Shown: positions 32,693 through 57,600 of the stretch, piece after piece
Numbering within the stretch: the first letter of the stretch is position 1
Layout of the letters: each line of letters begins with the position of its first letter
Virus record (IMG/VR): IMGVR_UViG_3300042340_000379
Span: 62,001 to 126,000 of that record
Length of the DNA: 64,000 nucleotides
Direction: 5' to 3' (one strand)
From: a virus
Made by a program: the position numbers and the translations under genes
Notes under the pieces: model-generated
Told to the model about the DNA's origin: nothing
The model's database searches: none
The model's input: only the letters and a program-made list of their open reading frames with translations

Positions 32693-32696
32693 TCAA

Positions 32697-32769
32697 GCCG
32701 TGTTAGCTCAGTTGGTAGAGCAGTTGGCCTGTACCCAACGTGTCGCGGGTTCGAGCCCTGCATACGGCT
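32697..32769 (+). tRNA. tRNA-Thr (UGU) with C33
   Basis: Cloverleaf: acceptor GCCGTGT/ATACGGC (one G-U), D arm GCTC/GAGC, anticodon stem GTTGG/CCAAC, T arm GCGGG-TTCGAGC-CCTGC, discriminator T, no encoded CCA. The seven-base anticodon loop CCTGTAC places TGT at positions 34-36, so Thr reading ACA; A37 fits. Position 33 is C instead of the near-universal U. Reading GTA (Tyr) would give U33 but breaks the anticodon stem and lacks the long variable arm of bacterial tRNA-Tyr. Confidence 0.8.
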
Positions 32770-32789
32770 TTAACAATCAATAAGAAAAT

Positions 32790-36741: not shown

Positions 36742-39700
36742 TTAAAGACCAGCAACCGCAGCATTCTTAGCAGCAGTTGCAATTGTTTTAACTTCAGATA
36801 GCTCATTGATTAGTGCAGATGATGTGGCTAGCCCTGCCACCGCCGAATCAAGCTCTGCCTTAGTTGGGCCATCATAGTCAGCCAAGGCCGCATCAACCTC
36901 CGCGTTGACCTGGGCCGTGCTGAGGTTATTGAGCCCAGCGATCGCCCCTGTGACCGTCCCTATATCGCTGGTCAACTCTGCCCGTGTCGGCGGGTCGTAG
37001 GCGTTGAGGGCCGCTGCTGCCGCCGCCTGGGTAGCCGTAGAATCAAGGGCATTGTTTCGGGCTACCAGGGTATCTAGGTCGGCATCGACACTGCCTGCCG
37101 CTGGAGAGCCCGCTGTAGGTGCCAGCTTAAGAGCATCGCGTACCTGTTGAGCCGTTAGGCCGCCGCCGCCGCCCGAGGGTGCATTAGCCAGGGCCGCTGT
37201 ACTAAATACTCCGGTCGTTTGCAATGTGGCGGCTAGATCGGCTAGGTCTTCAGCCTCACCCGCCGTCAAGCCACTGGTGCCTGATTCAAACGTCAGCAAA
37301 GTTCCTAGGCTCAGTGCGTTCGGGTTAATGCCGCCGGTGCCGGTCTGCGTTGGTGCTACCAGCGAACTGCCATCAGCGCTGGTGGCATTGCCCCCTACAA
37401 TATTCAGCCGGGTGCTGCTGGTGTTGTCAATCTCGAAGTTGGCAAAGACGAAGTTACTTGCGGTAATAGCGATCGAAGTATCCGCATTAATTAATCGAAT
37501 CCCTGGGGCCGTTGAAGATACCCACACACCCCAAATATAAAGGTCTTGCCATAGGCTCAGACCATCTGCGTCAGAAGCGTTTACCTGCACCCTACCGCCA
37601 CCACCCTCTAGCCCAAAACTGTAGGGGCCACCATTAGAAGCATCAAGCGTACTACCGTCATTAGCAGCAGTGAGTTCTGTCACCACCGTACCGCTAGCGT
37701 TTTTGATCCGCCCCCCGAGTTGCACAGAGGTTGAGGCGACAATATCTTCATGCACCAAATTCAATTCAATCGCCGGATTTACCACCACCGGGTCGTTAAT
37801 CCCTGCGGTCGCACTCCACAAAAAATCTTGGATATATAGCGGGGTAGCTGTGGCAATGCCGCCCGGATTATCCCAGTAAATTGCTTTGCGAATCACCCTG
37901 TCTCCATTGGCCAGAGTTAGCACAACACTGGCCCCGCTGCCACCGCTAACCACCGCATTATGCTTCTGGGTTTCAGTGATCAGCGTAAAAATAGAGCCGC
38001 TTGCGTTTGTGCCTGTTGTGGATATTGTGATAGGCGTTGCAGGGATGTCGGCTTCTTTAATAAATAGCGTGATAGCTCCAGCAGAAATGGTGGCATAGTA
38101 ACGCCCGCCATCGACTATCTGCGGGCTAGTCGTGGGCAGTGTGGCCCCTGCTGTGGCCTGGATTTTTACATTGGTGTAGGGGCTACCCGTAGCGAATGCT
38201 GGGGGACGGCTGTTGCTGTCGTTGCCTAGGGTTATGGTATCGGTGCCAGTATTTACGGCTGCGCTGGCGACTAGAAACGATTGTTGATGGGCTAGGTATA
38301 GGCGGGTGCCATCGACTAGGCTGGTGGAGGTGTAGGCGATAACTGGTGCAGATAATGTCACCCCTGTGCCTAAGACCAGTCCCGGATCAGGGTATGGAAT
38401 TGTTAGCGTAAACCCTGACCCTGTAACAGTCACTCCAGACTCTAGAACAAACTCAGATGTAAGAATAGTATTCGCCGTGATTTTTAGCTCAGCGCCACTT
38501 TTCACTGTTACGGAATCTGCATAAGTCCCTTTGCTGCTTAGTCGGCAAAAACGGCCTGAAGCTATATTTATTCTATAATTCCCGATTATGGCAGATGAAG
38601 CCCCGCTCATCTCAAAATCTTCACCATCAAATGTCACGACCGTATCTTCTGAAATAGTGATTTGATAATTAAATGTTGTGGTTGTTGTACCCGTACTTAA
38701 AACGCCTCTACCACTAATTAAATAGCGAAAAAATGAAAAATCATCAATTGATGAATTGCCTAATACAATTGGGCCTGAGCCTGTTTTTCGGATAGGCGAC
38801 GAATCGCCAAATGTTAATGCGCTAATGGTATTACGATTATCAAGAATCCTGGTTAATGCCCCCTTCCAAATACTGATAGCTGGGATACCGGCTCGATTAA
38901 CAGCAACTACAGTGGATAGATCCCCAGCCTCATCTAGTAGCGCATGATTAACAGTCCCTGTAGAGACGTATTCAAAACTTAAAAACTCGTTTAATGTGCT
39001 AAAAGATTGGGGATTTAATATTAAGCCCCCAACAACTGACGGAGCTGGAAGTGATGCTATTAATACATGCCGAGTTGATGAAATTTTAGTTATGTTAAAA
39101 TTGGTAAAACCAAAGTTTTGCGTACCACTCCTAACGATTGCGCTAGGTGCATAAGAAACTGTTCCTAACACTGTATCAGGATTAAATGTTCTAAAAACAA
39201 ATTTTTGCAGACTATCGGAGAGGTCTAGCATCATGGCGGCGATGTAACTGTTTGCCCCATCCACAGCCATATCAATTGCAGCTAAGGGACTTCCAGTATT
39301 GAAAGAGAATGAAGCTGTATGTACTGTTCCAGTCGTGCTAATTGTTGATGGATTAAATCTCCAAAAACGAACAAAAGCAAAATTCAGAGCAGCCAAATAC
39401 CCTACAGTTGCACTTAAGTGATGATACGAACATATTGTCATCCCACCTGTCCCAGCAAATGTGGCACGAAGGAGGGACGCTCTAGTGTTAGCGCTAGTTA
39501 TACCTGTGGCGCTAAACTCCAGCATGTCAACGCGATTGTTAGCGGTGTCCGTTGAAAACAAATAACTGTTGGCACCATTCAAATGAGCTTGGAGTCCTCG
39601 GATAGTGCCCATGCCCGTAATTGTTGCCGTTGATGCTACGGTTCCAGATACAGTGGATGGGTTAAATCTAAAAATAGTAATTGTATCAGTTGAATTTCCA

Positions 39701-39996
39701 GAAGAATGGAATAATAAGCTATTTGCTCCATTTTCTTTGAATAGGATTAAAGCACTCGGACTACCCGTTGGAACTGTAAATGTTGCGACTGGGGTGGGTG
39801 TTCCGCTTGCCACAGTGTCGGGATTGATTTCATGTAGCTCGATAGCAGCGGCTGAAGTCGAACAAGTATAGATTTGGAGCCGGGTCGAGCTTATTTTATT
39901 TAATTGGCAATAAGATGAATTATTGGCCAGCGTTAAAGTTGCGTTAATGTTGGCCAGAGGCAATGTAGCTGGTTGCCGTTTTGTTTGTAGCGCCAT
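36742..39996 (-). CDS. Tail fibre-like protein, compositionally mosaic
   Basis: 1084 residues. The N-terminal half (to about 500) repeats a unit of 45-60 residues with FNPSTVSGT, INPDTVASG and FNPDTVLGT at its centre, a beta-propeller-like repeat. The middle has single-strand beta-helix type sequence (DTVVTFDGEDFEMSG, GNYRINIASGRF). The C-terminal part is Ala-rich helical coiled coil (AQQVRDALKLAP, VDADLDTLVARNNAL, AEVDAALADYDGPTKAELD), as in phage fibres. By eye, bases 36.8-38.4 kb (C-terminal half) are clearly more GC-rich than 38.45-39.96 kb, indicating a swapped module. It lies directly after a 47-residue gene. Confidence 0.75.
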   Translation of the reverse strand: MALQTKRQPATLPLANINATLTLANNSSYCQLNKISSTRLQIYTCSTSAAAIELHEINPDTVASGTPTPVATFTVPTGSPSALILFKENGANSLLFHSSGNSTDTITIFRFNPSTVSGTVASTATITGMGTIRGLQAHLNGANSYLFSTDTANNRVDMLEFSATGITSANTRASLLRATFAGTGGMTICSYHHLSATVGYLAALNFAFVRFWRFNPSTISTTGTVHTASFSFNTGSPLAAIDMAVDGANSYIAAMMLDLSDSLQKFVFRTFNPDTVLGTVSYAPSAIVRSGTQNFGFTNFNITKISSTRHVLIASLPAPSVVGGLILNPQSFSTLNEFLSFEYVSTGTVNHALLDEAGDLSTVVAVNRAGIPAISIWKGALTRILDNRNTISALTFGDSSPIRKTGSGPIVLGNSSIDDFSFFRYLISGRGVLSTGTTTTTFNYQITISEDTVVTFDGEDFEMSGASSAIIGNYRINIASGRFCRLSSKGTYADSVTVKSGAELKITANTILTSEFVLESGVTVTGSGFTLTIPYPDPGLVLGTGVTLSAPVIAYTSTSLVDGTRLYLAHQQSFLVASAAVNTGTDTITLGNDSNSRPPAFATGSPYTNVKIQATAGATLPTTSPQIVDGGRYYATISAGAITLFIKEADIPATPITISTTGTNASGSIFTLITETQKHNAVVSGGSGASVVLTLANGDRVIRKAIYWDNPGGIATATPLYIQDFLWSATAGINDPVVVNPAIELNLVHEDIVASTSVQLGGRIKNASGTVVTELTAANDGSTLDASNGGPYSFGLEGGGGRVQVNASDADGLSLWQDLYIWGVWVSSTAPGIRLINADTSIAITASNFVFANFEIDNTSSTRLNIVGGNATSADGSSLVAPTQTGTGGINPNALSLGTLLTFESGTSGLTAGEAEDLADLAATLQTTGVFSTAALANAPSGGGGGLTAQQVRDALKLAPTAGSPAAGSVDADLDTLVARNNALDSTATQAAAAAALNAYDPPTRAELTSDIGTVTGAIAGLNNLSTAQVNAEVDAALADYDGPTKAELDSAVAGLATSSALINELSEVKTIATAAKNAAVAGL

Positions 39997-40286: not shown

Positions 40287-43200
40287 TTAAACCAAAAGAG
40301 CAACAAAAGATGGATCTGCAGTATTACTAGCCGCTACTCGGTTGCTAGCATGGAAATGATCCGATGCAGACTGTTGTTGTTTAATTGAGATTCTGTTTGA
40401 TTGGGCGTCATAAGAAACTACATGTTCAGTATTTTGAGAAGCTGAAGGCCTTGGATTAGGATTTGAGGGTTGTCTACTTGAAACTTGTTGAACAGAAACA
40501 GTTCCGCGAACAGGCTGAACTTCAGGAGCTTTAACTTCTTGTGGAGTATAAGTTTGAACTGCAGCTCCAACTGTCATTGGTAATTCTTGTGCTCGTTGTC
40601 TCGCTTGAGTTTCACGCACTCTTACTCTTTGAGCCCCTCTTCTAAATAGATCCAATCCAAGAGTTAGGCCAGGAATAAACGTAGAAGCTAAAGCCCGCGC
40701 TGACTGATTAAACAAGTTAAACGCCCGCTTGAAAAACCCTGGCTTCTCTTTTGTGTAAGAAGAGGGGGATCGGTTAGCTACTTGGTCGATATAGCTTTCA
40801 GCATTTGTGTTATCACCAACCAGCCGCTGCTGGATAGATCCTCCCAAAAGTCGGTCAACAGCTTCTCGAGCATCCCTAAGAAGTCGGTCTGGGTGAGATT
40901 TGTAATAGCTAGCTGTTCCTAAAACTGAGCCTAATTTCCGACCTCCATAATTTGCCAGGTCAGAACCAAGAGTGTCAATAGTAACGCCAAGCGCAATCAT
41001 GCCAAGACCAAGGCCCGCACCTACACCAGTTGCCGTTACAGCCGCTCCCGTTGCGTAAAGACTTTTAGCTAAAATTGACATGGGAAGCGTAGCCGCTAAT
41101 CGAAACGCACCCCCAACTGCTTGAGAATAAGCCAGTTGATGCTGCTCTTTTGAAGAGCCATAATTAAGAGAAAAAGCTTTCTTTAAACCAGAGAACACAT
41201 CATAAGCCCCGATGCCATATTCAACAACATCAAAAATCCTCCCAGCAAACCAAGCCCCACTCTTAGCCACCTTAGTCGCACTAATAGCTTTTGTTGTATT
41301 CGCAGTCCAGCTAGCCGCGCCAATGCCTAACCGCCCTAAAGCTCGACCTCCTCGTCCAACCCCTCGGGCTACTCTACTTGATTGCTCAGCCTGTCGAGCT
41401 GCTTGAAGAGAAAGATGGAGTCCAGACTTAGCTGCTTGCTGCACAGCTTGATTTGAATTAACCGCTCCAGCTCGAAGCGCTTCGTACAGGCGAGCAGTTT
41501 TTGTATTCCGGCTAGCAACTGACTGAGTATAAGAACTCATCATATTAAACAGATCGTCGGTCTGATTTAACATCCCAGATTCTCGGGCGTAGCTCATTGA
41601 CCTAGACATTCTGGAAAACTCAGCATTCTGGGCATAATTTACTAAGGGCTCGAGATTACCAGATGCTCTACCTGCTTTAGCCAAAGAGAGAAGTTGGGGA
41701 GCATGTCGAATTAATCGAGAAGTCTTAAGGCTAAAGAGAGTGTTAGACACAGCCCCCACAACTAGATCTGTTTCAGTAGCTCTTCCCTTAGCCATAAATT
41801 CAGCTCGCCGCTCAGACCTAGCTGCTATTAGTGGGGCAAGTCCAATAGAAGCGAGCACACCTACAAGATCATTCTTAAACGCCGCTGTTATACCAAAGGC
41901 CGCTATTGTTTGAAGAGCTGAAGAGTATGTTGATTTAACATATCGTTCGCGAGTACCGCCAGAGAAATTATCGGCTCCCATTAATAACCGCATGTTATTA
42001 GCCATTCCTACGCCAAGAACGCCGTAACTACCAACTCTAAACGCTCCAGAAAGAACTCCCCCTCTGCGCATAGCGTAATCAAGCGCTTTGTGGCGAACTC
42101 CCCCAGTCACCGCGCCTCTAAATAGTTGAGCAAATATTTTGGTGTGCATAGCTTGAGCAGGTTTAGCTAAATACGCTAGCCCTATACCAACCGCAGCTCC
42201 TACATAAGCCCCTTTAGAATCATCATCATCAAGGCTATTTCCAATAAGATGACCCACCATAGCGCCAATGCCAGCCATTCCTATATAACGGTTAAAAACT
42301 CGGAAAGAACTTCTTACCTGATTTCGAGCACCGTATTGAGTTGCGGCAGAAATTCCCCCAGCAATAGCCGCACCTGCTACTCCAGTAACAGAAATCCCAT
42401 CATTTTCTCTACTAGAGAAACGATCACCTATTAGATAACCTAAAGCTCCAAAACCTCCAGTAAATCCAGCCTGAGATAGAGGGGCTAACAGTGAAGACAA
42501 TCGCTTAGCCTGAGACATGTAAGCAGCCCCAGCAAAAGCAGCGACGGTCGCGCCGACCATTACATTAATGTTTCCCTCAAACAATTTGTTGTAAGCGGCT
42601 ACTGAGAGGCCAGCCGCAATTGCTGCCATAGCTGCTGCCGTTCCCAGTTTGAAGCCTTTAGCCAGATTGATAGTAAGAGAACGCTGCTTAGCTAGCTTCT
42701 GAAAAATTCCTGAAGACTTAACCCGATTAAGTAAACCTGAAAACCGGCTTTGTCTAGCTATATGACCAGAAGCTATAAGCTCAATCGCAGTATGGCGAAT
42801 AGACCCGCTATAAACTAAAGCAGCGGTCGCAGCACCCCCGGCCCCCGCCAGTAAAAAACTCTTTTCGTCATCATTTTGTAAGTAGTAAAGTGCAGCCATA
42901 GACAAAGCGCCCGCGACTAGTGATCGCCCACCTCCTGACCTAAAAATTCCCCCTTCTAGGTAGCGTTCATACTCAAAAGCCGCGACTGAGTTTATAACGT
43001 TTTGTAGAGAACGGGTTGCTTGACGCACACCCTTAAACCCAAACTTATGCTTGACCGCGTAAGTGATAAGATTATCAACCGTTCCGCTTAGCTGGGGTAA
43101 AAGTAGATGAGCCTTTTTCTGAGCTAATGAGAGAATCTGGGTTTTGTATAAACCTGAGGCACCCCCAAGTGCTAAACCTAAAACAGTTCCGTACACTCCA

Positions 43201-46200
43201 AAAGTAGAACCAAACTGCGCTCCAATAGCCGCTCCAACAAAACTTGAAGCAGTAAGTGTGGTAGGAGAGCGGTACTTAAGAATTTGAGAAGCACTTAAAG
43301 CGCCAGTCACACCAAACGCGATGTTAGTAAGCTTTTGAGTACTACGGTCGTCCGGACTAGACGCAATTAAACCTAAAGCTGCACCACCCAAAGCTATAGA
43401 GAACACTTTCCGATTCATTAGCCCAAGCTTAATCCGACCTTTAAGATCAGGACGGGTTACAGCCAAAACGTTGCCAGTCGGATTTGTTAGATTTCCTCTA
43501 TATGTCGAGATTGAGGAAGCTTGAGACATGTAACCCGATCGCGCCATGGGAGGAAGAATTGCTATACCAGCTCCAATAGAACCCCCTAACATAATGCCAA
43601 AAGTGTTTCTATCATCGCGGCCCCCATCTCGGGTATAGCCATAACCAAAAGCGTGTCTGGCAAGAATAGAGCCAGCTAAAAACCCGGCTCCTGCTCGTGC
43701 GCCATACTTAGCTGTCTGCTTAGCAAGATACACACCGGGTTTTTCAATCCCTTGCTTGCCAAGATGCTCAGCTACTCTAGTTTTTAACCCTAAAACAACA
43801 CCCTTAACTTTAGGCAGGGTTCTTTGAATATCATCGTTAAGAGCAGGCGCTGCCATCCGAAGCGTGAACTCAGTCGAAACACCCGGCATAATAATACCGT
43901 CAGCCGATGCGTCTCTCATCACCTCGCTAATGTAGTCGTTACCTCGCCCGGTGATGTCAAGACCTAAAAACTGCCCACCAAAACCGATCGCGTATAGAAG
44001 TGCTTTACTCCCTGCTGCTAGGCCTGCCATAGAGCCAATAAAAGAGAGCATTGCGCCCTGGTTTTGACTCACATTAGTTTGAGCAATCTCAACAGCTCGT
44101 GAAACCCGACCTCCAGTTGGTCGGGGATCTAGCATGTACTGATAAAAGTCAGCTCGGTTACGATATGTAGCGAACAAGTTTAGAGCTGGATCAGCGATGC
44201 TCATTACATCCGCCGCGCCCAAACGACTACCAGAGTACAACTTTGCAGCTGGTAAAACACCCTCTGCCTGTTTAACCAGAGCCCCTCCTTGAGAAGCTTC
44301 ATAGTTGTTCTTTGTTTGAAGAAGCTCAGCTTCTAACTCAAGACGCTTATTGTAAGAAAGGTCGGGGTTTAGAAGCTCAGCTTCTATTCGGGTCTTTATA
44401 TTTTCAGACCGCGCCATTTCCTGATTAATCAAATCAAGCTCATCAGCTTTGATGGTATACGAGCGACTCGAAATATCAGGATTATTTAGGTGCTTAATGA
44501 GACCCTGGTAAACATCAACGTTAGCGTTAACGTCAGCCATAGCAGTGTGAGCGTTTTGCAGTGGCTCTCCCGCGATTGCCTCATAAATAGAGCCAAGGTT
44601 GGAGCGAGCAGCACCTAATTCTCTATACCGCTTGGGGTCAATATCATTAAGCGTGTCAATATAGCGGCCTTGAGTTACTGCTTTATCCAGTTTTTTAACC
44701 AAGTCATGCCGACCCAGCCGGTGCATTGTCGCTTGGAGAACTGGAATGTCAAACTTAGAAATGTTGTGGCCAGCTAGAACAGCACCATCAAGCTGACCCA
44801 TTAATTCTTCAAGAACATCTCCTGCTGCCTTACCTTTAGCCAGATCATCTAAGTTAAACTTACCCCCGGTCATTTCACTGGGGTCATAGTAGGGCTGCAC
44901 AAGATAACGATTCTCAGAAAGACTTTGAACCCGCCCAGTTTGAGTGTCTATAGTAATTTTTCGGTAGGCTACTTCCGCAATAGGAGGGCGCGATCCTGGA
45001 TCAGTCTCAGAAAGATCTGTTCGAGCTGAGTAGGATGTTTCAAGGTCAAAGAATAAAAGATTTTGATAGCGGGGTAAGTCTTTGATTGTTTTTAGCTTTG
45101 GCGGATCAGCATGATTTACTAGCTTGTCAATTGGAGTGTTAGTTCTAGACTTTACTGACTGGAGGTCAGGATTCATTACTGAAGTAAACTCAGCGCGATC
45201 AAAATCTCGAATACCATCGCTGCTCTTACTTTGAGAAGATCGTTTGGCTGATTTGCTTTGGTCTTTACGCCCAATCGTCCGCTTAATAGGGTCCTCAGAA
45301 CCACTGGATAAATCGTGGATGCTCTGAACCATGTGACCCGATTCAAACGAGAACGTTCCATCGTGATAAGTAGCCCCCTGCATAAGGCGGTCGAAAATAG
45401 GATGGGTGTTATCTAACTGGATAGCATTAGCACCAAGCTTGTCTAAGTTCCCTTGGAATAGACCAGTCTTAGTGTTCTGATATCCTTCAAATCGGCCCCT
45501 ACTCTGCCGATCATCTATAGTTTGGACAATACGGCTAGCGCGGGAAACACCGTACTTGTTACGCTGCTTGATAAATGCGCGAGAGTTAGCCTCAAACTCC
45601 TGCTCATAAATTTGCTGATAACCAATATGGTCGAGATTTTGATTGTTAGCTAATGCCCCTTGAGCTGAGCGTTGAGCCAACCTATCAATAGATGTAATAA
45701 CGTCAGAAGATGCGCCTGCTTGAGTCAAGAGCTTCTGATTGCCAAGAAGATCCCGACTCGCCGTAAAGCCTGGGCGATTAAATTCCTTAAGATGCTTTCT
45801 AGCCTGGCGAACGTGCATCTTCTCGTGAAGAAGCTCAAATTCAGCCATCTGGTAGCGCATCGAGTTACGGGGAGACTTGAGCCTCGCCTGCAAACTCTCG
45901 CTCATATCGATTCGAGGATTCCCGTTACCATCAAACGACACCTCACTTCTGGAGAGGTTAGCAATCATTCGAGAACGAATAGTCGAGTAAACCGAGAGGC
46001 TTGAAGCGATAATCGCGGAGGCGTAGAGTTTATTGCGGCTATCCTTATATTCATGGACATCATATTGAGCCATCCGGTAGCCCATGCGGTCGCCTATCGC
46101 AAAACCCATGACACCTAAAGCGACAACCGACAAAAGCGATCGCCCTTGAAGCGCACCAATAGAACTGGCGATAGCGCTGAACGAAGAACCCAAAGATTCT

Positions 46201-49200
46201 CTATAAGCCGCAGCGACATTCTCACCCGTCTGCCGGTCAGGCTGACTCTCCATTACTCGGCGGGTCGCGCCAAACATAGAGTACATATCAATAAAAGCTG
46301 GGCCCATGTCTTTAAGAACAGTGCCTGTCTGGCGCAAGTTTCTCCCCATACGAGAAGAAGTCTTACGTAAGCGCATAGCCAAAATCTGACCGTCAGTTAA
46401 AGCAGGGCCAACAGCAGAAGGGGCTGGAGGCAGCAAACCAAAAGGGGTAAACTCTTTAACAGGCTGCAAAAGTCCAAACGGAGTAAAAGCCGCTGGGGCA
46501 TAACCAGGGCTAACAGGTGTCTGGATTTGAGGGACGTTCTTAATCGCGTCGTAGATTTTACCCACTCCGCCCGCCGCTTCATTAATAACAGTGGATGAAA
46601 TAAATGATGAGGCAGTAGAGACACCCAAGAATGCAGCCGTTGCAAGTTTCTGCATTTCAAACAGAGTCTGGCTAGCGACAGGTTCAAAAAACCGCCCGAC
46701 CTGTTGAATAGGTAATAGCACTCCTGGCCGATGAGTAACGTAACGAAGGTTCCTCATCCCTCGGGAAAAGCCTCTCCGCGCAATTCTCGTCTGAACTTTA
46801 AAGCTCGGAATGGTCACATCAGGAAAAATAACTTGCACGTTAGGCAAGTGCATCCCAAACTTAGGTCGCCGCATTAGCATTTGGCGTCTAAATAACTGAC
46901 CGGGATTAGCAGCTTGAAGATTCTTTGCTCCCTTTACATACCCAGAAATGTCGGCAAACTCTTCTCTTAGTTGAGGGAGAATACTGCTGTTCAGTTGCCG
47001 AGCCATTTTTGAAGTGGAAGCATAGGCAGACATTAAGCCTAAAGCTACCCGATTATCTTCAGCAGGCGCAGGCCGACGCATCATTGCACCATATATTGCG
47101 TAATTACCCATGTCCTGACGCCGCTCAAGAGCCATTCTCATCGTCGGACTTAAACGATTCATGCTTGAGATAGAAAAGCTCGAGATAATAGAAGGCATAA
47201 TTCTCTCTCGAGAATTAAAGTAGCGCTCACTGTAGTAGTTGTCTAAAAATCCATAAGCAGAACCACGCACGTTTGCTTGAACCGGAATCTCTCCACCCAC
47301 AGACATAAAACTAGATAAGCCCCGACTCATCTTGTTTCTGTGGTAGATGTCCTGGTTATAAACAAACGGCTCTGAGCCTGTAAACGTTTTTTGGGCTTCT
47401 TTATAAATCTGCTGTTTGTATAGAGATTGGGGTAAAAGAATGCTAGTAGCAATCGCCATCGCCATACTACGGGAGCCCTTAGCATAAGTCTCACCAATCT
47501 TTTCTCCCATAGGCTCAAAGATTGTACCAACTAAAGCATCTCCTAATGGGCCGGTTGCTTTGCTGACTAGGCTGCTAACACCTGAGACTAAGCCAGCTGC
47601 AAAAGATGTAAATCCACGCTCGACAGAAACAATACCTTGGGCTAATCTAGAATTTTTAAAAGACTCAAAGTTGACGGACATGATTGCACCCGCCAAGAGC
47701 ATAGCTGGTAAATTAGCCTTTCCACTAAATAAAACCTTTGAGATAACCCGCTCAAGACCATAGGCAAGACCTAGCTGACTAGACGCTCGAACTAACTGAA
47801 GAGATGCCTGGTCGCGGAGACGATCTTCACTTGATAGTAAGTAAGCAGATGATTCAGCAAGAGTATAAACATCCTGACCGTAGGAAGCATAAAATGCAGT
47901 AACTCTACCTGCTCCCATTACAGCGTTCATCACATCTTCCGTGATAGGTCGAACAGTTGGAGCACCTCTAACAGTCTCAAAGACTTTCTCGACTTTTACA
48001 TTGTTTGTGGTGTCTATCTCACCTAGTCGCATCATATGTTGCTCAAAAGCCTGAGCTTCAAGCTGAGCCCGCCGAATGTTTAGGCGAGACAGCCTATCTC
48101 CAGATGAGAGGCGTCTATTATTCTTGAGCGTATTAGCATAGTCTTCCAGCTCACCATAAGACTCAGGGGCAATCATCGCCTCAAGCTTTTGGGTAAAATC
48201 GCCAGTGTAAAGCACTTCATAGCGCTTTGGATTTAACCCCATTGTTTCTTCTAACAAAGGCTCTTGCATAAACGCATAAATCTTCTGCTGAAAATCTGAT
48301 GCAAGATTACTTTTAACATCCCGGCCCTCTAGCAAATCCTGCATGTACGGAGACATAGAACCAATATGGTCAGCTACCGTGCGCGTTAAAGTACCATAGG
48401 TTTTCATAACCTGATACCAATATGCTCTTTGAGTAAGCTGCATGCCCTCAGGCATAGCAATCTTATAAGCCGCTGTAATAACCTCTTTGTCTTTAGAAAA
48501 GAGCTGGGCGACAGCTTTAGTGTCAGATTTATGAGTATCAAACCGCCCGCTTCGAGCTACTCTATAGAAATCTCGAACAACATCCTTAAGCGCGTCGTTT
48601 CTAAGCCCTATACTCTCACCTAAAAACGCTCGTTCCATCCCACCCGTAACCGTAGCTAATGCAATACCCGTTGAAGCTAAAGTACCAATCGATAAGGCTG
48701 TAGAAATAGAACCAAGCAAAGCGGTTGAACCAGCGGTCTGCCCCTGGTCGCTATAGGCTTTATTTATCCCCCCGATTTGAGTAAAGAAACCGGATTTAGC
48801 AGTGTAATAATGTTGAGATGTAATATTAACTATCAAATCATCTAGGGTTTCGCGGCTCCCTCTTGCTGTGTAAGTTCCCTGAAAAGCGCTGGCTAAGTCA
48901 ATAGATAAAGCCTGAAGTGGGTCATATCCTTGATAGGGAACTTTTCCTAGAGATGTTGAAGTACGCCCTAGAAGAATACCTTCCTTAAGTTGGTCAATCG
49001 CAAGCTCACTTGCCCGCTGCATAGAAATCCAGCGCATGGTAAATTCGCGTCGGGCAAATGCAGTTTGAAGAGTAGAGCTAGTCAGCGCTCGCTGCTCATA
49101 CATTGTTATACCGTCAACCCGCATCTTTTTGCGACGAGAGACAGCGCCTCTATACATCGCAAGAATTTCTTCTGCAGCAGCAGGACTTTCATCAAGCCTA

Positions 49201-52200
49201 TTCATGTTGTAATCAAGAACAGCTGAAAGTTGCTGCATCGCTTCTTTTGACATTTCATAGTTAAACATCCCGTAAGATGCATAAGAAATGTCAGAAGTTG
49301 GAGAGGCTATTTGAGAATAAAACCGAACTTGGGAGTTGGTTTGATCCATTGATGCCCCAGTTGGATAGAGCAACGGCGTAAATAGGTTTGGCGTATCTAC
49401 ATAAAGACCCGTAAGCTTTTCGAGATTCACCCCCGTTAGCTTCTTAATCAAAGAAGATGTAGTTTGAAAGACGGCTCGAAGGGGATTGCCACGCTGCTCA
49501 GCATATTGAGTAGGGTCTGGGCCAGCTAGTCTTAGTGCGGGTAGAAGTTTGTACAATCCTTCAAGACCAGCTTGGCCAAACATTTCTCCTGCAAGACGGG
49601 TGCCCAAAGTAGCTGTAAGACCAGCCGTTACTAGCAACGTGCCCGCAAGTTTCATCCGAGCTGACGAACGACGAAAAAGATTAGTCGAAGAAGCAATCGC
49701 TTGCTGTTGTTCTAAAAGTCCGGGTACAAGCTCAAGTACTTTTTGACTAGGCCCTCTTAGTCTAATCTGAGAAGCAACGTCGCCCGCGCTGGAGTAAACA
49801 CCAGACTGCATTCCAAGATAACCAACATATCCCAACTGCGCAGCCGCAAGCCCGCGCTGAAACGGGTTCTCAAATGCTTCATGACTTCCTGGGCCAGTAT
49901 CAGGATCTGTCAAAGCCAGACTTGCCATCGCGGTTAGATAAAAAGGGAGAGCTCTACCTACACCTTTAGGAATGTTAAATGAGCTATTCAGCTTTTGAGC
50001 AATTCCAGTTCCTTGAATAAATGCTTTACCACCGGCCATCATTGCTTGGGGAACAGCGACTGAGAAGCCAGTCATAATCCCGGTCATCGATTCAATAGTT
50101 CTAAAACCCGTTCCCAAAACCTTCATCATAGGAGAAAGGTACTTTGATTCTCTCTGGGCTAGATTTGAAAGGTTATAAAGCATAGACCCAGGGCGAGAGC
50201 CTTTCATAGCTGCTTGGGTACGCTGAATAGTTCCCCTAGCTAGAGTTGCGGCACCTAAGAATCCAAGCGCTGCTTCTACCTGGCTTCCTTCTGAGTACAC
50301 AAAAGAATTAAAAAAGGCTAGCCCAGCTGCTTGATTTAATAGCTGCTCACCTGTGCCAAGTACTGTCCCTAATGGGCCGTTAGGGTTTATTCCAGAATTA
50401 GCTAAGGTTTGGTTCAGATAGTTGTTTTTTTCGTTAGCTCTTAAACGCAGTGCAATAGGTAGAGTAGGGTTTACACCCATACCTAGCATAGGCAGCAACT
50501 GCATACCAAACGAGAGAGTTGTCTGGTTGCTAGTTGGGTCAGTGCGCAGCAAGGTAGCAAACTGAACAAAGCCTAAGTTTGTCTGCTGAGCAATCGAGTA
50601 AACATTCATTCCAATCGCGGCGGTTGGATCACCTGATTGAAGCTCTTTTAGAACATGCCCTAGCACCCCTCTAGTCGCAACAGAAGAGGGGGTAATATCA
50701 GCAAGCAATCCTTGGCCGGTTGTATATCGAGTTTTGTTTAGGGTTGCTTTAATCAGGCCAGCGACTGATTCAGTCTCAGAGTCTAGCTCACGTCCTGGTT
50801 GCCGATTATGAATATTGTTTAGAAGCGCAGAGACCGCAACGTAAGCAACTTTTGCTGACACCAAACCCATAACCGCGCCGACCGCAGCTGACCTCATGTT
50901 AAACTTAGCCTTAACAGAGACAATGTCTTTAGTAAGCTGCTGAGCTTGGTCAAGTGATCGGGATAAAGCTTTAAGACCAGAAGATTGAGTAGCGACTCTA
51001 TACGTCCGAAGATGGTCACCCATGTGGTAAAGCATCTTACCGACCGTGCTGTTCTCCAGTCGGGTCTTAGCAAAATAGGGGAAGAGACTACCAGTCGCCA
51101 AACCTGCAACACCTGCTACTCCTAAAGCAGTAGCCGCAGGCATCGCCCCGTTAAATTTGAAGGCCATCACTTGGCCTTCATCATTACGGACAGCATCAAA
51201 GAGCTTCATTTGAGAATGGAGTGAAGCGCCTTGAGTCCTTAAAATAAATTGGTCAAAAAGATAATCAGCGCCAAGAACACCCCCGACAACCAGAAGCGTT
51301 CTGATATTCTTTTTGAATCGAGATGATCTAGCCGTAATAATTTGGTCAGCGTCTTGGCCTAGGTTATAACCTACATAGCTGCTGGCCTGAGTGTTCATCA
51401 ACTTTGTTTGCTGAACAAGACTCGACCCTGCCATCGCGTTGGAAGTAGAAACCATTGTCTCTAGCAGTTGGGTTGTGTCCCTCAAAACTTGAGGCCGGGA
51501 AGAAGAGTAATCAGCTTTAATGCCGCGAATGTTGTCTCTAAGAGATTTTGTGTACTGCTGCTCTAATTGAACTAAAGAGCGTGAGTCTTCAAAAAGCTTC
51601 ATAGCTGCACGGTAAGACTGGATAGGCTGCTTAATTATGTTTGCGGTAACCCTGGCCGTCACATCAAATTTAATCAGCATATTCTGCATGAGGTTATCGC
51701 CAAACACCTCAGCAATCGAATTGTCGTCAGCCGTCGTTACGCCCATCCACTGCCGCATACTCGGAATCCAGTAGATAGGATTTGAGGGTACTGCCCGCGC
51801 AATCTTATCTACTTCTTGGGCCAAGTCTTGAACTCGACTACGCCCAAAATTAACCAGACCATCTTCTCGTACAGAAACAGGTTGCTTAATTCTCTTGGCA
51901 AGGTTGGTAAGCGCCTCATTAGCGCCAGCTCTATCGGCAGCAGGTACGACAATATCAATCATCGAGCCACCAATAGTCCGAACAATCTCTGATTCGTATC
52001 GTCTTAAAGAGTTGATAAATCCAAGAGGAGTTCCAATGTCAGCATGCTTTGTAGCAATCCTGACGCTTAATTTGTCGGGATCGTTAAGTGTAACTTGATG
52101 CGCCCGCTTGAGAATCTCAGCGGCTCCAACATTCTCTCCTGTTCCAACAAGCTGATCTTTAACATAGTCAATTGCAGCATCCATCTGCCGAGACTCAGGC

Positions 52201-53492
52201 GTGGAAAATACACCTCGAAATATATTCTGAAGAGGAGTTCTCTGCTGAGTTGTCTGGCTAGAAAGGTAAGCAAGACCCTCCTCTTGGATAGCCATAATAC
52301 CAAGTTGAGAAGCAAACGACGCTCCATATCCAACAATTGCAACCGCAATTCCTTTTGCTGCATCAGTAGAAGCGCCCAGCATCTTCTCGATAGGGCCCGC
52401 TTCTAGAGAATTGTCTCTATACTGAGTACGGTGAAATGCAAGTGGTGTGCCCTCAAGCCGCCCTTCACGCACCATCTTCTCGTACTGAAAAGCATGAAAG
52501 CCTGTCACATTGTCTAGAAAACGCCCAGCTGAACGAGCTGCCGAACCTAGAATGCCGTAACCTTCATGGTAAAACTTAAACCCAAGAGCCCGATTAATTT
52601 GGTGCCCCAAAGAAGGAGTTCCGATCTCCCGATCAGCGGTAATAACGGCGGTAGGTGCTGTCTGAGATGTAAACATCTCATAGGTCGCTGTGGTAGATCT
52701 ATACATGGGTAGAGATCTACCAATATATCGGTCAAAGAAAGATTCCTTTAATTGAGTCGGCATGTAGGGTAAAGAAACTCCCTGCCCTAGTCTATCTTGA
52801 GATAAAGAGTCTACCTGACTATAAGTCGTCTTGCGAAGAGACCCAAACTCGCCTAAATCATAAGAGTTAAGAACGGGAGGCTTAGGAGGACTTGGCTTTA
52901 ATGCCTTTGATTTTTGCTTCTGATAATTTAGTTGCTTCTTAGCCTGAAGAATCTCCTGAGGATCTCCACCCTCCCGTGCTTTCTTCAAATTCTGCTTAGC
53001 AGAATCTAAATACATTACACGCTGACGAAAATCACTGGGCGTTTCACCCAGACCATAAACAGCCCCTCCCTGCTTATACGCTTTGAGAGCTGCCTTAGAA
53101 TAAGCATCAGCTTTATTCCGGTCTGAAAATATAGTTTGGGAAGGGATGTGAGCAAGCCCTGCTTCAACAATCCGAAGGTTTACAGAACCCTGAGCGTTAT
53201 GTATTTCACCAAGAGTTCGTCCGTATTGGTCAGTTCCTTGAGACTCAATCTGAGCTTGGCTTCCAATAGGAGCCAAGCTTCTAGCATAGTCTGTGGCCCT
53301 ATCTCCGTAACGCTGCCCTTTTGTTCCCCTACCATGGGAAGTTTCAGGCGCATCAATATAAGAGAGACGAACTGTGCGCTTCTCTCCAAACTTATCTTGA
53401 ACAACAAAAGTGTCAGCATCTTCAATCCCAACAACAGTCCCTGACATGTCAGGACGATTATGGCTGCTGAGTCTATTGACAAACGAGTCCAT
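40287..53492 (-). CDS. Giant 4401-residue virion-type protein: thermonuclease + HExxH + DEDDh exonuclease + glycine-zipper membrane segments
   Basis: Not a known single family. N-terminal staphylococcal-nuclease-like domain (about 15-160): DADT (25-28), R42 and E50 in VRLSYIDAPE, R92 in YGRTLGE, matching the catalytic residues of thermonuclease. H2556-E-x-x-H2560 in LLHEKMHVRQ is a zincin-type site. A DEDDh exonuclease lies at about 2810-2995: D2816 and E2818 in FFDLETS, D2915 in HNISKFDIP, H2982 and D2987 in AHTAMAD, all five catalytic residues. Many Gly/Ala-rich hydrophobic segments occur before and especially after the exonuclease (for example GAAIGAQFGSTFG, GAAVGIGLAYLA). The size and position among tail genes fit a tape measure or an ejected protein. 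Starts three bases after the upstream gene's stop. Confidence 0.85.
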   Translation of the reverse strand: MDSFVNRLSSHNRPDMSGTVVGIEDADTFVVQDKFGEKRTVRLSYIDAPETSHGRGTKGQRYGDRATDYARSLAPIGSQAQIESQGTDQYGRTLGEIHNAQGSVNLRIVEAGLAHIPSQTIFSDRNKADAYSKAALKAYKQGGAVYGLGETPSDFRQRVMYLDSAKQNLKKAREGGDPQEILQAKKQLNYQKQKSKALKPSPPKPPVLNSYDLGEFGSLRKTTYSQVDSLSQDRLGQGVSLPYMPTQLKESFFDRYIGRSLPMYRSTTATYEMFTSQTAPTAVITADREIGTPSLGHQINRALGFKFYHEGYGILGSAARSAGRFLDNVTGFHAFQYEKMVREGRLEGTPLAFHRTQYRDNSLEAGPIEKMLGASTDAAKGIAVAIVGYGASFASQLGIMAIQEEGLAYLSSQTTQQRTPLQNIFRGVFSTPESRQMDAAIDYVKDQLVGTGENVGAAEILKRAHQVTLNDPDKLSVRIATKHADIGTPLGFINSLRRYESEIVRTIGGSMIDIVVPAADRAGANEALTNLAKRIKQPVSVREDGLVNFGRSRVQDLAQEVDKIARAVPSNPIYWIPSMRQWMGVTTADDNSIAEVFGDNLMQNMLIKFDVTARVTANIIKQPIQSYRAAMKLFEDSRSLVQLEQQYTKSLRDNIRGIKADYSSSRPQVLRDTTQLLETMVSTSNAMAGSSLVQQTKLMNTQASSYVGYNLGQDADQIITARSSRFKKNIRTLLVVGGVLGADYLFDQFILRTQGASLHSQMKLFDAVRNDEGQVMAFKFNGAMPAATALGVAGVAGLATGSLFPYFAKTRLENSTVGKMLYHMGDHLRTYRVATQSSGLKALSRSLDQAQQLTKDIVSVKAKFNMRSAAVGAVMGLVSAKVAYVAVSALLNNIHNRQPGRELDSETESVAGLIKATLNKTRYTTGQGLLADITPSSVATRGVLGHVLKELQSGDPTAAIGMNVYSIAQQTNLGFVQFATLLRTDPTSNQTTLSFGMQLLPMLGMGVNPTLPIALRLRANEKNNYLNQTLANSGINPNGPLGTVLGTGEQLLNQAAGLAFFNSFVYSEGSQVEAALGFLGAATLARGTIQRTQAAMKGSRPGSMLYNLSNLAQRESKYLSPMMKVLGTGFRTIESMTGIMTGFSVAVPQAMMAGGKAFIQGTGIAQKLNSSFNIPKGVGRALPFYLTAMASLALTDPDTGPGSHEAFENPFQRGLAAAQLGYVGYLGMQSGVYSSAGDVASQIRLRGPSQKVLELVPGLLEQQQAIASSTNLFRRSSARMKLAGTLLVTAGLTATLGTRLAGEMFGQAGLEGLYKLLPALRLAGPDPTQYAEQRGNPLRAVFQTTSSLIKKLTGVNLEKLTGLYVDTPNLFTPLLYPTGASMDQTNSQVRFYSQIASPTSDISYASYGMFNYEMSKEAMQQLSAVLDYNMNRLDESPAAAEEILAMYRGAVSRRKKMRVDGITMYEQRALTSSTLQTAFARREFTMRWISMQRASELAIDQLKEGILLGRTSTSLGKVPYQGYDPLQALSIDLASAFQGTYTARGSRETLDDLIVNITSQHYYTAKSGFFTQIGGINKAYSDQGQTAGSTALLGSISTALSIGTLASTGIALATVTGGMERAFLGESIGLRNDALKDVVRDFYRVARSGRFDTHKSDTKAVAQLFSKDKEVITAAYKIAMPEGMQLTQRAYWYQVMKTYGTLTRTVADHIGSMSPYMQDLLEGRDVKSNLASDFQQKIYAFMQEPLLEETMGLNPKRYEVLYTGDFTQKLEAMIAPESYGELEDYANTLKNNRRLSSGDRLSRLNIRRAQLEAQAFEQHMMRLGEIDTTNNVKVEKVFETVRGAPTVRPITEDVMNAVMGAGRVTAFYASYGQDVYTLAESSAYLLSSEDRLRDQASLQLVRASSQLGLAYGLERVISKVLFSGKANLPAMLLAGAIMSVNFESFKNSRLAQGIVSVERGFTSFAAGLVSGVSSLVSKATGPLGDALVGTIFEPMGEKIGETYAKGSRSMAMAIATSILLPQSLYKQQIYKEAQKTFTGSEPFVYNQDIYHRNKMSRGLSSFMSVGGEIPVQANVRGSAYGFLDNYYSERYFNSRERIMPSIISSFSISSMNRLSPTMRMALERRQDMGNYAIYGAMMRRPAPAEDNRVALGLMSAYASTSKMARQLNSSILPQLREEFADISGYVKGAKNLQAANPGQLFRRQMLMRRPKFGMHLPNVQVIFPDVTIPSFKVQTRIARRGFSRGMRNLRYVTHRPGVLLPIQQVGRFFEPVASQTLFEMQKLATAAFLGVSTASSFISSTVINEAAGGVGKIYDAIKNVPQIQTPVSPGYAPAAFTPFGLLQPVKEFTPFGLLPPAPSAVGPALTDGQILAMRLRKTSSRMGRNLRQTGTVLKDMGPAFIDMYSMFGATRRVMESQPDRQTGENVAAAYRESLGSSFSAIASSIGALQGRSLLSVVALGVMGFAIGDRMGYRMAQYDVHEYKDSRNKLYASAIIASSLSVYSTIRSRMIANLSRSEVSFDGNGNPRIDMSESLQARLKSPRNSMRYQMAEFELLHEKMHVRQARKHLKEFNRPGFTASRDLLGNQKLLTQAGASSDVITSIDRLAQRSAQGALANNQNLDHIGYQQIYEQEFEANSRAFIKQRNKYGVSRASRIVQTIDDRQSRGRFEGYQNTKTGLFQGNLDKLGANAIQLDNTHPIFDRLMQGATYHDGTFSFESGHMVQSIHDLSSGSEDPIKRTIGRKDQSKSAKRSSQSKSSDGIRDFDRAEFTSVMNPDLQSVKSRTNTPIDKLVNHADPPKLKTIKDLPRYQNLLFFDLETSYSARTDLSETDPGSRPPIAEVAYRKITIDTQTGRVQSLSENRYLVQPYYDPSEMTGGKFNLDDLAKGKAAGDVLEELMGQLDGAVLAGHNISKFDIPVLQATMHRLGRHDLVKKLDKAVTQGRYIDTLNDIDPKRYRELGAARSNLGSIYEAIAGEPLQNAHTAMADVNANVDVYQGLIKHLNNPDISSRSYTIKADELDLINQEMARSENIKTRIEAELLNPDLSYNKRLELEAELLQTKNNYEASQGGALVKQAEGVLPAAKLYSGSRLGAADVMSIADPALNLFATYRNRADFYQYMLDPRPTGGRVSRAVEIAQTNVSQNQGAMLSFIGSMAGLAAGSKALLYAIGFGGQFLGLDITGRGNDYISEVMRDASADGIIMPGVSTEFTLRMAAPALNDDIQRTLPKVKGVVLGLKTRVAEHLGKQGIEKPGVYLAKQTAKYGARAGAGFLAGSILARHAFGYGYTRDGGRDDRNTFGIMLGGSIGAGIAILPPMARSGYMSQASSISTYRGNLTNPTGNVLAVTRPDLKGRIKLGLMNRKVFSIALGGAALGLIASSPDDRSTQKLTNIAFGVTGALSASQILKYRSPTTLTASSFVGAAIGAQFGSTFGVYGTVLGLALGGASGLYKTQILSLAQKKAHLLLPQLSGTVDNLITYAVKHKFGFKGVRQATRSLQNVINSVAAFEYERYLEGGIFRSGGGRSLVAGALSMAALYYLQNDDEKSFLLAGAGGAATAALVYSGSIRHTAIELIASGHIARQSRFSGLLNRVKSSGIFQKLAKQRSLTINLAKGFKLGTAAAMAAIAAGLSVAAYNKLFEGNINVMVGATVAAFAGAAYMSQAKRLSSLLAPLSQAGFTGGFGALGYLIGDRFSSRENDGISVTGVAGAAIAGGISAATQYGARNQVRSSFRVFNRYIGMAGIGAMVGHLIGNSLDDDDSKGAYVGAAVGIGLAYLAKPAQAMHTKIFAQLFRGAVTGGVRHKALDYAMRRGGVLSGAFRVGSYGVLGVGMANNMRLLMGADNFSGGTRERYVKSTYSSALQTIAAFGITAAFKNDLVGVLASIGLAPLIAARSERRAEFMAKGRATETDLVVGAVSNTLFSLKTSRLIRHAPQLLSLAKAGRASGNLEPLVNYAQNAEFSRMSRSMSYARESGMLNQTDDLFNMMSSYTQSVASRNTKTARLYEALRAGAVNSNQAVQQAAKSGLHLSLQAARQAEQSSRVARGVGRGGRALGRLGIGAASWTANTTKAISATKVAKSGAWFAGRIFDVVEYGIGAYDVFSGLKKAFSLNYGSSKEQHQLAYSQAVGGAFRLAATLPMSILAKSLYATGAAVTATGVGAGLGLGMIALGVTIDTLGSDLANYGGRKLGSVLGTASYYKSHPDRLLRDAREAVDRLLGGSIQQRLVGDNTNAESYIDQVANRSPSSYTKEKPGFFKRAFNLFNQSARALASTFIPGLTLGLDLFRRGAQRVRVRETQARQRAQELPMTVGAAVQTYTPQEVKAPEVQPVRGTVSVQQVSSRQPSNPNPRPSASQNTEHVVSYDAQSNRISIKQQQSASDHFHASNRVAASNTADPSFVALLV

Positions 53493-53495
53493 AAA

Positions 53496-54044
53496 TTAAT
53501 ACTGGAATCTAGCTAAGCCAGAATTACGTTCAGGAATTTCAATAAGCTGATCAAGAGTAACTGCAGCCGTGTAAGCAATACTAATCTCAGTTCCAACTGG
53601 AGGATTATTTGTAATCCAATTTAATTGATTGCTGAGAATCTCAAAAGTTCCATTCCAACTGGGGTCTAGACTTGAAAAGTAATCATCGGGAAGTGGAATA
53701 GAAGCACCGGATGTAGAGACATGCCAAACAAAATTGCGGGTTCCTTTGCGCTCTGGAACTAGCCACTGCTGACGGTCAATAGGTTGAGGGTTCCCTGGCC
53801 TGTAATAGTTAATTTGATACCGTCCTAATGGAAAGTATCGATCAGAGGGCAAAAGCTTCAAACGCAAATCTTCCCCAACCGTTGCTGTAACTATTACTTT
53901 ATCCTGAATGCTTTGGTATGTCCCTGGTCGATTTCCTCTAGGAAACAGAATCTCTAGAATGTATTCCGTTTCAATAAGCGGATTATCTTCCGCATCCAAA
54001 GCTGGACTCTGGAAGTTAACAAGAATTTCGGTGTACTCAATCAT
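53496..54044 (-). CDS. Hypothetical tail/baseplate protein upstream of the giant gene
   Basis: 182 residues, strand-rich, Pro-rich (ILFPRGNRPGTYQSIQDKVI, GRYQINYYRPGNPQPIDRQQ, then VPERKGTRNFVWHVSTS). Resembles beta-sandwich virion components, but no family was identified. Its stop is three bases before the giant gene start, so one operon. Confidence 0.6.
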   Translation of the reverse strand: MIEYTEILVNFQSPALDAEDNPLIETEYILEILFPRGNRPGTYQSIQDKVIVTATVGEDLRLKLLPSDRYFPLGRYQINYYRPGNPQPIDRQQWLVPERKGTRNFVWHVSTSGASIPLPDDYFSSLDPSWNGTFEILSNQLNWITNNPPVGTEISIAYTAAVTLDQLIEIPERNSGLARFQY

Positions 54045-54393: not shown

Positions 54394-54698
54394 AACGTTC
54401 CGCCATTAATAAACGAGCTTCTATAATACTCCGTTCCGTTAGCATTCGATGTCACAAAGCTTGCGTAGGTTGCGTTAGTACTTAAAGGCACCTCCAAAAA
54501 ATCCTCAGCGGCAGTAATTTCTAAATAAGTATCTTCAGCATCTTGGGTTGTTAAAAAATCCTCAATACCTGAGTTTGGTGCATAGTTATCTTTAATAAAA
54601 GACAAGACGGCCCTCACCCGTGCAGGCGTAATAAAGTTCTCAACGTTGTCAGGAAGATTGGTTGTAATTAACGCTTGAAGGTCTTCTGGTTCAGCCAT
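54390..54698 (-). CDS. Small tail-fibre-associated protein
   Basis: 102 residues. The N-terminal LQALITTNLPDNVENFITPA and RVRAVLSFIKDNY follow the motif of phage fibre/structural proteins (LP.N....ITP...R..L..I..N). Overlaps the terminase start by 8 bases. Role inferred. Confidence 0.55.
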   Translation of the reverse strand: MAEPEDLQALITTNLPDNVENFITPARVRAVLSFIKDNYAPNSGIEDFLTTQDAEDTYLEITAAEDFLEVPLSTNATYASFVTSNANGTEYYRSSFINGGTF

Positions 54699-57600
54699 AG
54701 TCTCGAATTGAGTTCCACTGTTGTTCTATATCTTGCGCTACAGCAGCGTAGCTTTTAGGACGAAACTCATTCAAATACTGATTACGATCTGATACTGAGT
54801 TTGTCTCGCTTGACGTTTGACTAGAATACACGACAGGAGTAACTGCAAAGCGTGCATTCTTACCTGTTAACTGCCAGGCAACCCCAGCGACGGCATCTGC
54901 TAAATCTTTGCTGCCCGTAGAATCGTGATCAATTTTCCTACCTTTTATAAGCTTAAGGCGAGTAAGCTCGTCTAGCAGCAGGTTTTTGAACGCTGAGTTT
55001 GATGGAAACGTAATCCTACTTTCATGCAAAAGCAGTCGCAAGTTGTCATACATCTCGAGCTGTAGCTTCTGAGAGAAGTACAAAGACTCAGACTTAATAC
55101 CATACATCCTAAACCGCTCAAGCGTTTCCCATGAGTTGTGATGGTCAGCGCTTATTTTGCTGATGGGCCTGGAGCTATGAATCTTAAAGATAATATCTTG
55201 AACATTCGTAATAGAGACAGCCGCTGTCGGATCAGGCCTCCACGCGATTAGACCATCAATAACAACAAGTGTTGGGTCTTGATAATCACCGCTTATCGTT
55301 TCGGCATGACCAATAGCAAATCCGTAAGAGTCAGTAACTACAGACGGGTCTAAATGAACTATAGATAGATAGTCGTTGCAGGGTTCAATCTTTTCAATAG
55401 AGACTCTTATAAGACCGTCGGGGTCAGAAGACTGAGTAGTGAAAATCTTGTTTGAGCCACGAAACGCTCGAGTAACTTCATCTTGGTCAAAGAAGGCATC
55501 TTCAGCTACTCCTCGAACTCCTTCACATTCAAGAGCCGCTCGCCTTGGGTCTAGATTATACTCAGAGGCAATAAGGGCATTTTCTCTGTTATAGATTGGA
55601 TTGACATCCCAAGTCCTTAGCCGAAATCCTAACCAAGTATTATCTGATGCCGAGCTTTGGTACAGTTTCTGAATCGCGTCCCCCTCATACCAAGCAGAAG
55701 AGATAGCTAATCGCTTCGCGTCAGCTCCAAAGTTAATTCCACTAATCCCAATGTTGCTCCATAACTCAAGGGCATTAGAGTCTCCATCAATATCCTTAAA
55801 TCTAGTTACCTCGTCCATTGCTAAGAGGATAACTGATTGCCCTACCTGGCTACTAGACTGGGAGTTACCTGAGTAGATGTAGAGAAGCTTTTTCTCAAAC
55901 TTAATCTCTTCTTGACCTACAGTAATTAGTTGTTGCTCAATAAGCCGCTCAAAGTATTTGCATACTCGCATCATCCCAATAACTTGTTTAAAAATGGTTC
56001 GCTTAGCTTGAGCAGCAGACGTAGCTAGAACAAGAATCGAGATAGGAGTTGAGGAGGCTATACCATAGTGTTTTTGGGGTTCGGGAAGGTGGCAAAGTCG
56101 ATAGAACTCATAGACAATAATTACAGACGAGAGCATCGTGTTGTGGTTAGTAAACCCATTCGCGATGTACTGATTGGTTTCGGGCACAGACAAGTCGAAG
56201 CATTCAGCCCGAGACTCCTCTACCAAGACAATAGGGTCAAAGAAGTAATTTAGACTCTGGATCTCCTGAAAGTGTTGAATAGCTTGAGTATCTAAACCAT
56301 GTTTTGTAGAGTACAAAATAAGGTCATCTAGCCTGTAATAGGAAAAATGCTTCTTACATCCAGCTTTAATCGAGTTACCTACAATCGCTCGCAAACCAGC
56401 TCGAATGTTCTCTAGCTTTGGAAGAGACTTTTGGAGCTCTGGGTCATTCGATTTATAAGCATGACTACCAGGCTGCTTACCTCGATTACTCGGAGCTGAT
56501 GCTCTTAGTTGCTTGAGCCAGTCTTGCTGGTAAGGTATCCTCTCAGTATCTCCTCCATCTTTTTTACCCAAAGAGTTCTGAACGTAAGTCTCAAGTCTAT
56601 TTTGTTTCCGTGTTGTTTTTAGCTTAATCTTCCAATAGAAATTCAGAATAGACTTCTTACCACGAACCTGAACTTCGTAGTAACCCTGCCCATCAACTTT
56701 TTTTGTTGTGATGACAGAAACGATCCCTAGGTTTAAGAGCATAACCTGAGTCTCTTCAGCTAACTTAATAGAAGCTGTGGATAATGAGATGGTTTTTCCA
56801 TCTTGGGAAACCGTACCATCCCCGTCAAACAATCCAGCTAGATAGCTACACACAGCTGACATAGATGAACGTCTGATAGCCCAAGGCGTAATTTTACCTC
56901 GAACAGATGACCCAGTTTTCCATCCTAGGTTATCTAAAAACTTTCTAGCTTGGACGCTATTAAGACAAACTTGATAACCATGGTCAGAGGTTTGTTTGAA
57001 TCGAATGTTCCCTTCTGGAAATATTGCCTGGTACGCCGCTTTGTAGATTTCGAGATCTGCATCATAAAGATGGCACTCAACTCTATTGGGTAAATTCCAA
57101 CTTCCATTCGCAGTCAATATGCCAAGTAAATAGCCCAATTGGGTATCTAAAGTGAAAGGAAGATCAAGTATATTCGCATTAGCTGCAAATTCTTTCTCAC
57201 TTGGAAGATAGGTGCTTATATCAAGGTCTTGCTCAGGAAAGCAGAGATTTCCTCGGTTAATACAAGCATAATCTCCTACCTGCAGGTCAGCAAAGTATTT
57301 CCACTGAATAGTTCCATCTTGAGTCATTACCTTAATTCGATGTTCAGGAGTAGCTTCTAGCTTATAACCAGCAGCTGTCTTAATCTTTCGGGTTGCAGTG
57401 ACTCCTTTATAGTAGAGACCGTTTGCTTCAACTGGAAGGGCTTCTCCTGGTTGGGCAACTTTTGAAGAGAAAGATGATAAGTAGGAGGTAGGCTCTAAAT
57501 CTACAACTTTATCAAGTCTGTCTTCAAGTAGCACAAAAGAATCTGTGTTAGGCATATAGTTAGAAAAAAGTTCATAACCATATACCAACCCATGAGACTG

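Follow-up and report, generated by a model that had tools for sequence, protein, structure and literature searches.

The minus strand of the window (the whole analysed stretch of 64,000 nucleotides, positions 62001-126000 of a virus record of 207,855 bases) encodes a giant protein in which a single chain bears two domains for cutting DNA, membrane hairpins in rows and possibly a protease. Its gene follows the terminase gene, as do the genes of its relatives wherever the upstream side is readable, and its body is that of a family in which the nuclease module at the N terminus is exchanged. Since the nuclease is swapped for unrelated ones in relatives, the giant probably enters the host by injection, breaches its membrane and attacks nucleic acid there. 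We consider it a carrier of exchangeable nucleases that is ejected and inserts into membranes, a reading to which we assign a probability of slightly more than one half.

Genome and gene neighbourhood

Identities of about 27-43% connect the capsid protein, sheath, tube and terminase with those of Microcystis phage Ma-LMM01 (LMM01) and its relatives. By these matches the record is a large contractile-tailed phage of the Ma-LMM01 group, distant from LMM01 itself and presumably infecting a cyanobacterium. The uncultured phage G002 is closer than LMM01 (capsid protein 82%, sheath 61%).

The giant reading frame comprises 4401 codons with zero internal stops and begins 3 bases past the stop of the preceding gene, in agreement with the single gene of the preliminary description (features in Table 1). 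The 182-aa product of that preceding gene has no sequence match in LMM01 or G002. According to an alignment with the terminases of G002 and LMM01 (gp118), the intein of the terminase is inserted directly after the GK of Walker A. The terminase ORF of the phage with the family member L084 (L091 2714-7738, 1674 aa) likewise much exceeds the length of a terminase and probably bears an intein. A single tRNA-Thr (TGT) gene lies at 32696-32770 (+). A 1024-aa protein (L006:7598-10672, -) consists of M23 peptidase, lysozyme/endolysin (phrog_90, 6e-35) and LMM01 gp93-like parts, which are separate genes in LMM01 and partly so in G002.

Table 1. Features of the giant gene and its neighbours (window positions; aa, residues of the giant protein where a range is given)
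Feature	Position	Strand	Basis
1084-aa fibre-like protein, next after the giant	36742..39996	-	G002 homologue directly follows the terminase
Giant ORF, 4401 aa	40287..53492	-	Single ORF; profile comparison to the LMM01 gp120 family
Predicted hairpin array (six Gly-zipper hairpins of two segments, acidic turns), aa 3267-3776	42165..43694	-	Count against shuffles
DEDDh 3'-5' exonuclease domain, aa 2757-3030	44403..45224	-	phrog_192, RNase_T, TREX1
Zincin-like region, aa 2500-2650; HEKMH at aa 2556-2560	45543..45995	-	Motif only
Conserved family body block 3, aa 1334-1526, motif FYxQ..S..SDISxAxY	48915..49493	-	hhalign score 49, E=1e-4
Conserved family body block 2, aa 967-1015	50448..50594	-	hhalign score 33, collinear
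Conserved family body block 1, aa 263-762	51207..52706	-	hhalign probability 95.8, E=8e-9, score 83
SNase domain, aa 18-141	53070..53441	-	PF00565; PDB staphylococcal nuclease
182-aa protein just upstream of the giant, at the LMM01 gp119 position	53496..54044	-	Layout
Terminase large subunit with LAGLIDADG intein inside	54691..57954	-	phrog_17415 4e-23; PF14528 1.6e-17

The family of giants

In LMM01, terminase gp118, gp119 (211 aa) and gp120 (2898 aa) are consecutive. MaMV-DH01 and My-WqHQDG share this layout, with giants of 2899 and 4151 aa, and scans of viral contigs yielded the further members L051 (3215 aa), L069 (4392 aa), L070 (2963 aa), L084 (3570 aa) and L071 (5486 aa), so that family lengths range from 2898 to 5486 aa. 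Wherever the upstream side is readable, the giant lies 1-3 small genes downstream of the terminase; the order terminase, then giant is found in this phage, LMM01, MaMV-DH01, My-WqHQDG, L051, L069, L070 and L084, and for L071 the terminase is not within the stretch read upstream. Gp120 (YP_851134.1), the annotated member nearest to the protein, is phrog_29513 in PHROGs, with its function listed there as unknown; it and its homologues in MaMV-DC, MaMV-DH01 and My-WqHQDG are annotated as hypothetical.

Near-DNA and single-protein searches with the 4401-aa protein recovered no close relative, and no copy was found in bacterial genomes; the relatives were reached via capsid protein, terminase and body alignments. 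Aligned by hhalign to a profile of the seven other members, the protein matches in three body blocks (Table 1), for which shuffles score at most 23. Plain blastp against L070 gives E=9e-12, spanning SNase plus body. By these alignments the protein is a diverged member of the LMM01 gp120-type giants. Where the GRLYKDExG motif block of the family aligns, it has KFYHEGYGILGSAARSAGRFLD, which may be a diverged form of that block. Past about aa 1530 the resemblance to relatives is only weak: L070 has about 1000 residues there, this protein about 2900, and this region unique to the phage holds the HExxH motif, the DEDDh domain and the hairpin array. The tree position of the body of this phage is unsure owing to its long branch, and the AlphaFold model of the body is too poor for interpretation or structure search. 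The most domain-rich member seen is L071 (L087:2987-19447, +), with two HExxHxxQ motifs, a GDSL hydrolase, PLD and the family body on 5486 aa.

Enzyme domains

The preliminary description had read a complete thermonuclease-like site and a complete DEDDh exonuclease from the letters of the gene, and both assignments, made from sequence, are secure. D25, A26, D27, T28, R42, E50 and R92 stand where they were placed, the SNase domain matches Pfam PF00565 (E=9.8e-13) and staphylococcal nuclease in the PDB (E=4e-9), and its catalytic set D27, R42, D47, E50 and R92 is complete. The key residues are identical in four diverged members (this protein, L070, L051 and L084). All five residues of the D-E-D-H-D set (D2816, E2818, D2915, H2982, D2987) are likewise present in the DEDDh domain, which is matched by phrog_192 (E=3.3e-15), by RNase_T (6.8e-6, segment query) and by TREX1 (3e-4).

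The zincin of the same description is a motif-level call. Histidines 2556 and 2560 are in place, composition alone would predict 0.026 HExxH motifs in the protein, and the surroundings read HExxHxxQ with E-x-E-A downstream, which makes a plausible context. The profile search with this region gave no profile above its threshold and the PDB search nothing credible, an AlphaFold model of the segment from three sequences (pLDDT 40) is too poor to interpret or search with, and a profile comparison with the two HExxH regions of L071 scores at shuffle level; the call therefore stays with the motif. Elsewhere in the family HExxH is found in L071 only, close to the N terminus.

A very improbable explanation is that the giant is a structural protein whose SNase, zincin and DEDDh regions survive as relics and have lost their activity. 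It draws on the zincin being just a motif and on enzyme assignments made from sequence, against which stand SNase key residues that are invariant in four diverged members and a DEDDh set with five of five residues.

Membrane segments

Eight paired Gly-rich segments with acidic turns are present in the giant protein, six of them forming the array in Table 1, whereas shuffles contain a mean of 0.6 and a maximum of 3. With a loose hydropathy cut 25 segments are found (shuffle mean 17, maximum 22); a strict cut passes only 4. The many Gly-zipper membrane segments noted earlier thus hold as predicted hairpins, far above shuffles, but strict helices are few.

Exchange of nuclease modules

SNase modules are carried by this phage, L070 (9e-14), L051 (1.7e-13) and L084 (1.9e-7), and PLD-type modules by L069 (1e-9), My-WqHQDG (1.2e-11) and, by motif, L071, which possesses in addition a GDSL hydrolase (4e-23) and two HExxH motifs. 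The PLD of gp120 is tentative, with a single HxK motif and zero Pfam matches. Two unrelated folds, SNase and PLD, thus sit in the same place ahead of the same body.

The borders of the exchange are sharpest between L051 and My-WqHQDG, whose DNA is collinear at 73-80% identity through terminase and giant body and whose proteins are 71% identical over 2963 residues. After a common leader of about 20 residues, L051 continues with 0.72 kb (SNase) and My-WqHQDG with 3.6 kb (PLD, Gly-zippers), which reads in the alignment as a clean SNase/PLD cassette exchange. Both are sisters in the tree (100/100 support), on which the SNase and PLD labels require at least two changes. Nucleic-acid cleavage is probably the selected function of the swapped module, as it is the activity common to SNase and PLD nucleases.

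The constant closeness to the terminase gene could also reflect a late intracellular, membrane-bound enzyme outside the virion, or a packaging or head-maturation factor, with nucleases that act on host DNA or on packaged DNA ends. We regard this as improbable: the exchange of SNase and PLD and the additions of GDSL or DEDDh suit arms-race cargo better, membrane hairpins are not needed for packaging, and G002 has a similar terminase with no giant nearby.

The giant as a possible tape measure

A further explanation, unlikely in our judgement, takes the giant for the tail tape-measure protein with fused enzymes, which would set the tail length and then be ejected, like gp96 of Thermus phage P23-45. 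A contractile tail always requires a tape measure, and no other long, Pro-poor and helix-leaning product stands out among those structural genes of LMM01 and My-WqHQDG that were examined. According to PMC10770324, tape measures commonly contain metallopeptidase and membrane segments, and fused enzymes have a precedent in gp96 itself, with its enzyme, metallopeptidase and membrane parts.

The tail of about 660 nm that the preliminary description derived for such a protein is weakened by its relatives. With its 2899 aa the homologue in MaMV-DH01 would imply 435 nm (0.15 nm per residue), against a tail of 230-260 nm (PMC9927357, whose text has 230 nm and whose abstract has 260 nm). Moreover, the giant gene follows the terminase, outside the sheath-tube-baseplate run, and lengths within the family vary mainly through added enzyme regions. 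G002 keeps the head-tail module and is without a giant at that locus, where the terminase is followed, after about 0.5 kb, by the homologue of the fibre gene that here comes after the giant. In the whole 172-kb G002 contig no giant could be detected; at minimum, the part corresponding to genome 76-98.7 kb is missing from this contig, and since it is incomplete, the giant could have moved. A small + ORF (about 106 aa, one hydrophobic segment and a coiled coil) lies between terminase and fibre gene of G002 (L018:4471-5000), in the place that the giant takes in this phage. The tape measure is kept as the main rival because of the P23-45 gp96 precedent and because no other clear candidate was found.

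Two LMM01 proteins were rejected as tape measures: gp108 (1359 aa, 204 nm) is strand-leaning, and the 923-aa protein of this phage has no similarity to gp98 (1177 aa, 177 nm). Outside the window, at genome positions 156763-166854 (+; L007/L008), lies a second giant ORF (3363 aa from stop to stop), which contains the GGDFDGD motif known from two-barrel RNA polymerases. It has counterparts in G002, in LMM01 gp80 (3562 aa) and in the first ORF of My-WqHQDG, and could encode a virion RNA polymerase, or a tape measure fused to one as in P23-45.

Proposed role

The ejected membrane-inserting nuclease that the preliminary description gave as its alternative fits best, with a body that is kept and an SNase that is swapped for PLD-type modules; residence in the virion, ejection, membrane insertion and the target of the giant are what we infer from this pattern. 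The place after the terminase, the lack of bacterial copies among the search results and the hairpins also speak for this reading. The giant would be made late, sit in the virion and exit together with the DNA or before it. Its body and Gly-zipper hairpins would enter host membranes and may help to make or line a passage. The cargo would thereby reach the host side, namely the N-terminal SNase and, in this phage, the DEDDh exonuclease and possibly the zincin peptidase. The delivered nucleases would break down nucleic acid of the host, of plasmids or of rivals, and the possible peptidase may cut the chain, freeing or trimming cargo.

A point against the carrier is that an unspecific nuclease, if it entered alongside the phage DNA, would have to be restrained from cutting it. 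Another is that PLD-fold proteins can be lipases. Furthermore, the giant may not be indispensable, as G002 is without the gene at the syntenic place, in a contig that is incomplete.

Giant ejected multi-enzyme phage proteins are a known theme (PMC5512222, PMC10172136, PMC10770324). The homologues in LMM01 (gp120), MaMV-DC, MaMV-DH01 and My-WqHQDG resemble the protein in their place after the terminase, giant size, collinear body blocks and a nuclease-like module ahead of the body, but possess PLD-type modules (that of gp120 tentative) and neither an HExxH nor a DEDDh region. P23-45 gp96 (5002 residues) is by description likewise giant, with an N-terminal enzyme, metallopeptidase and membrane segments; its enzyme, however, is an RNA polymerase, and gp96 serves a very long tail as tape measure (PMC10770324). 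Polyvalent proteins of phages and conjugative elements, in which zincin-like peptidases are commonest (Iyer et al. 2017, PMC5512222), combine several distinct enzyme domains per chain and are thought to be injected. The predicted SNase and DEDDh domains give the giant the former trait. SNase, DEDD and PLD are absent as terms from the main text of PMC5512222, and no description of membrane hairpin arrays or of a nuclease exchange linked to the terminase was seen in that paper. The crassvirus cargo proteins gp45-gp50 (PMC10172136) are also very large virion proteins whose ejection is expected, partly as a membrane channel, but they are podovirus RNA-polymerase-related or channel proteins with no described nuclease cassette.

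The preliminary description had known no family with this combination. This stands for the exact domain set and not for the wider context, as the family of giants exists (gp120, phrog_29513) and the injected multi-enzyme theme is described. The open-access papers searched yielded no family that is linked to the terminase and bears interchangeable nuclease cassettes on a conserved, membrane-like body, and no SNase plus DEDDh member of such a family.

For the giants of the Ma-LMM01 group in general we tentatively suggest, at a little less than even odds, an injected, membrane-inserting delivery chassis with exchangeable SNase or PLD and added DEDDh, zincin or GDSL modules, whose N-terminal cassette is replaced as a unit and which would be to contractile phages what polymorphic toxins are elsewhere. 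A family of giant genes that had been anonymous in phages of bloom-forming cyanobacteria thereby becomes a testable system, with a conserved body predicted to be membrane-active and a nuclease end that can be replaced. As LMM01 and MaMV-DC are available in culture, the contents of their virions, the nuclease activity and the consequences for host DNA are directly testable.
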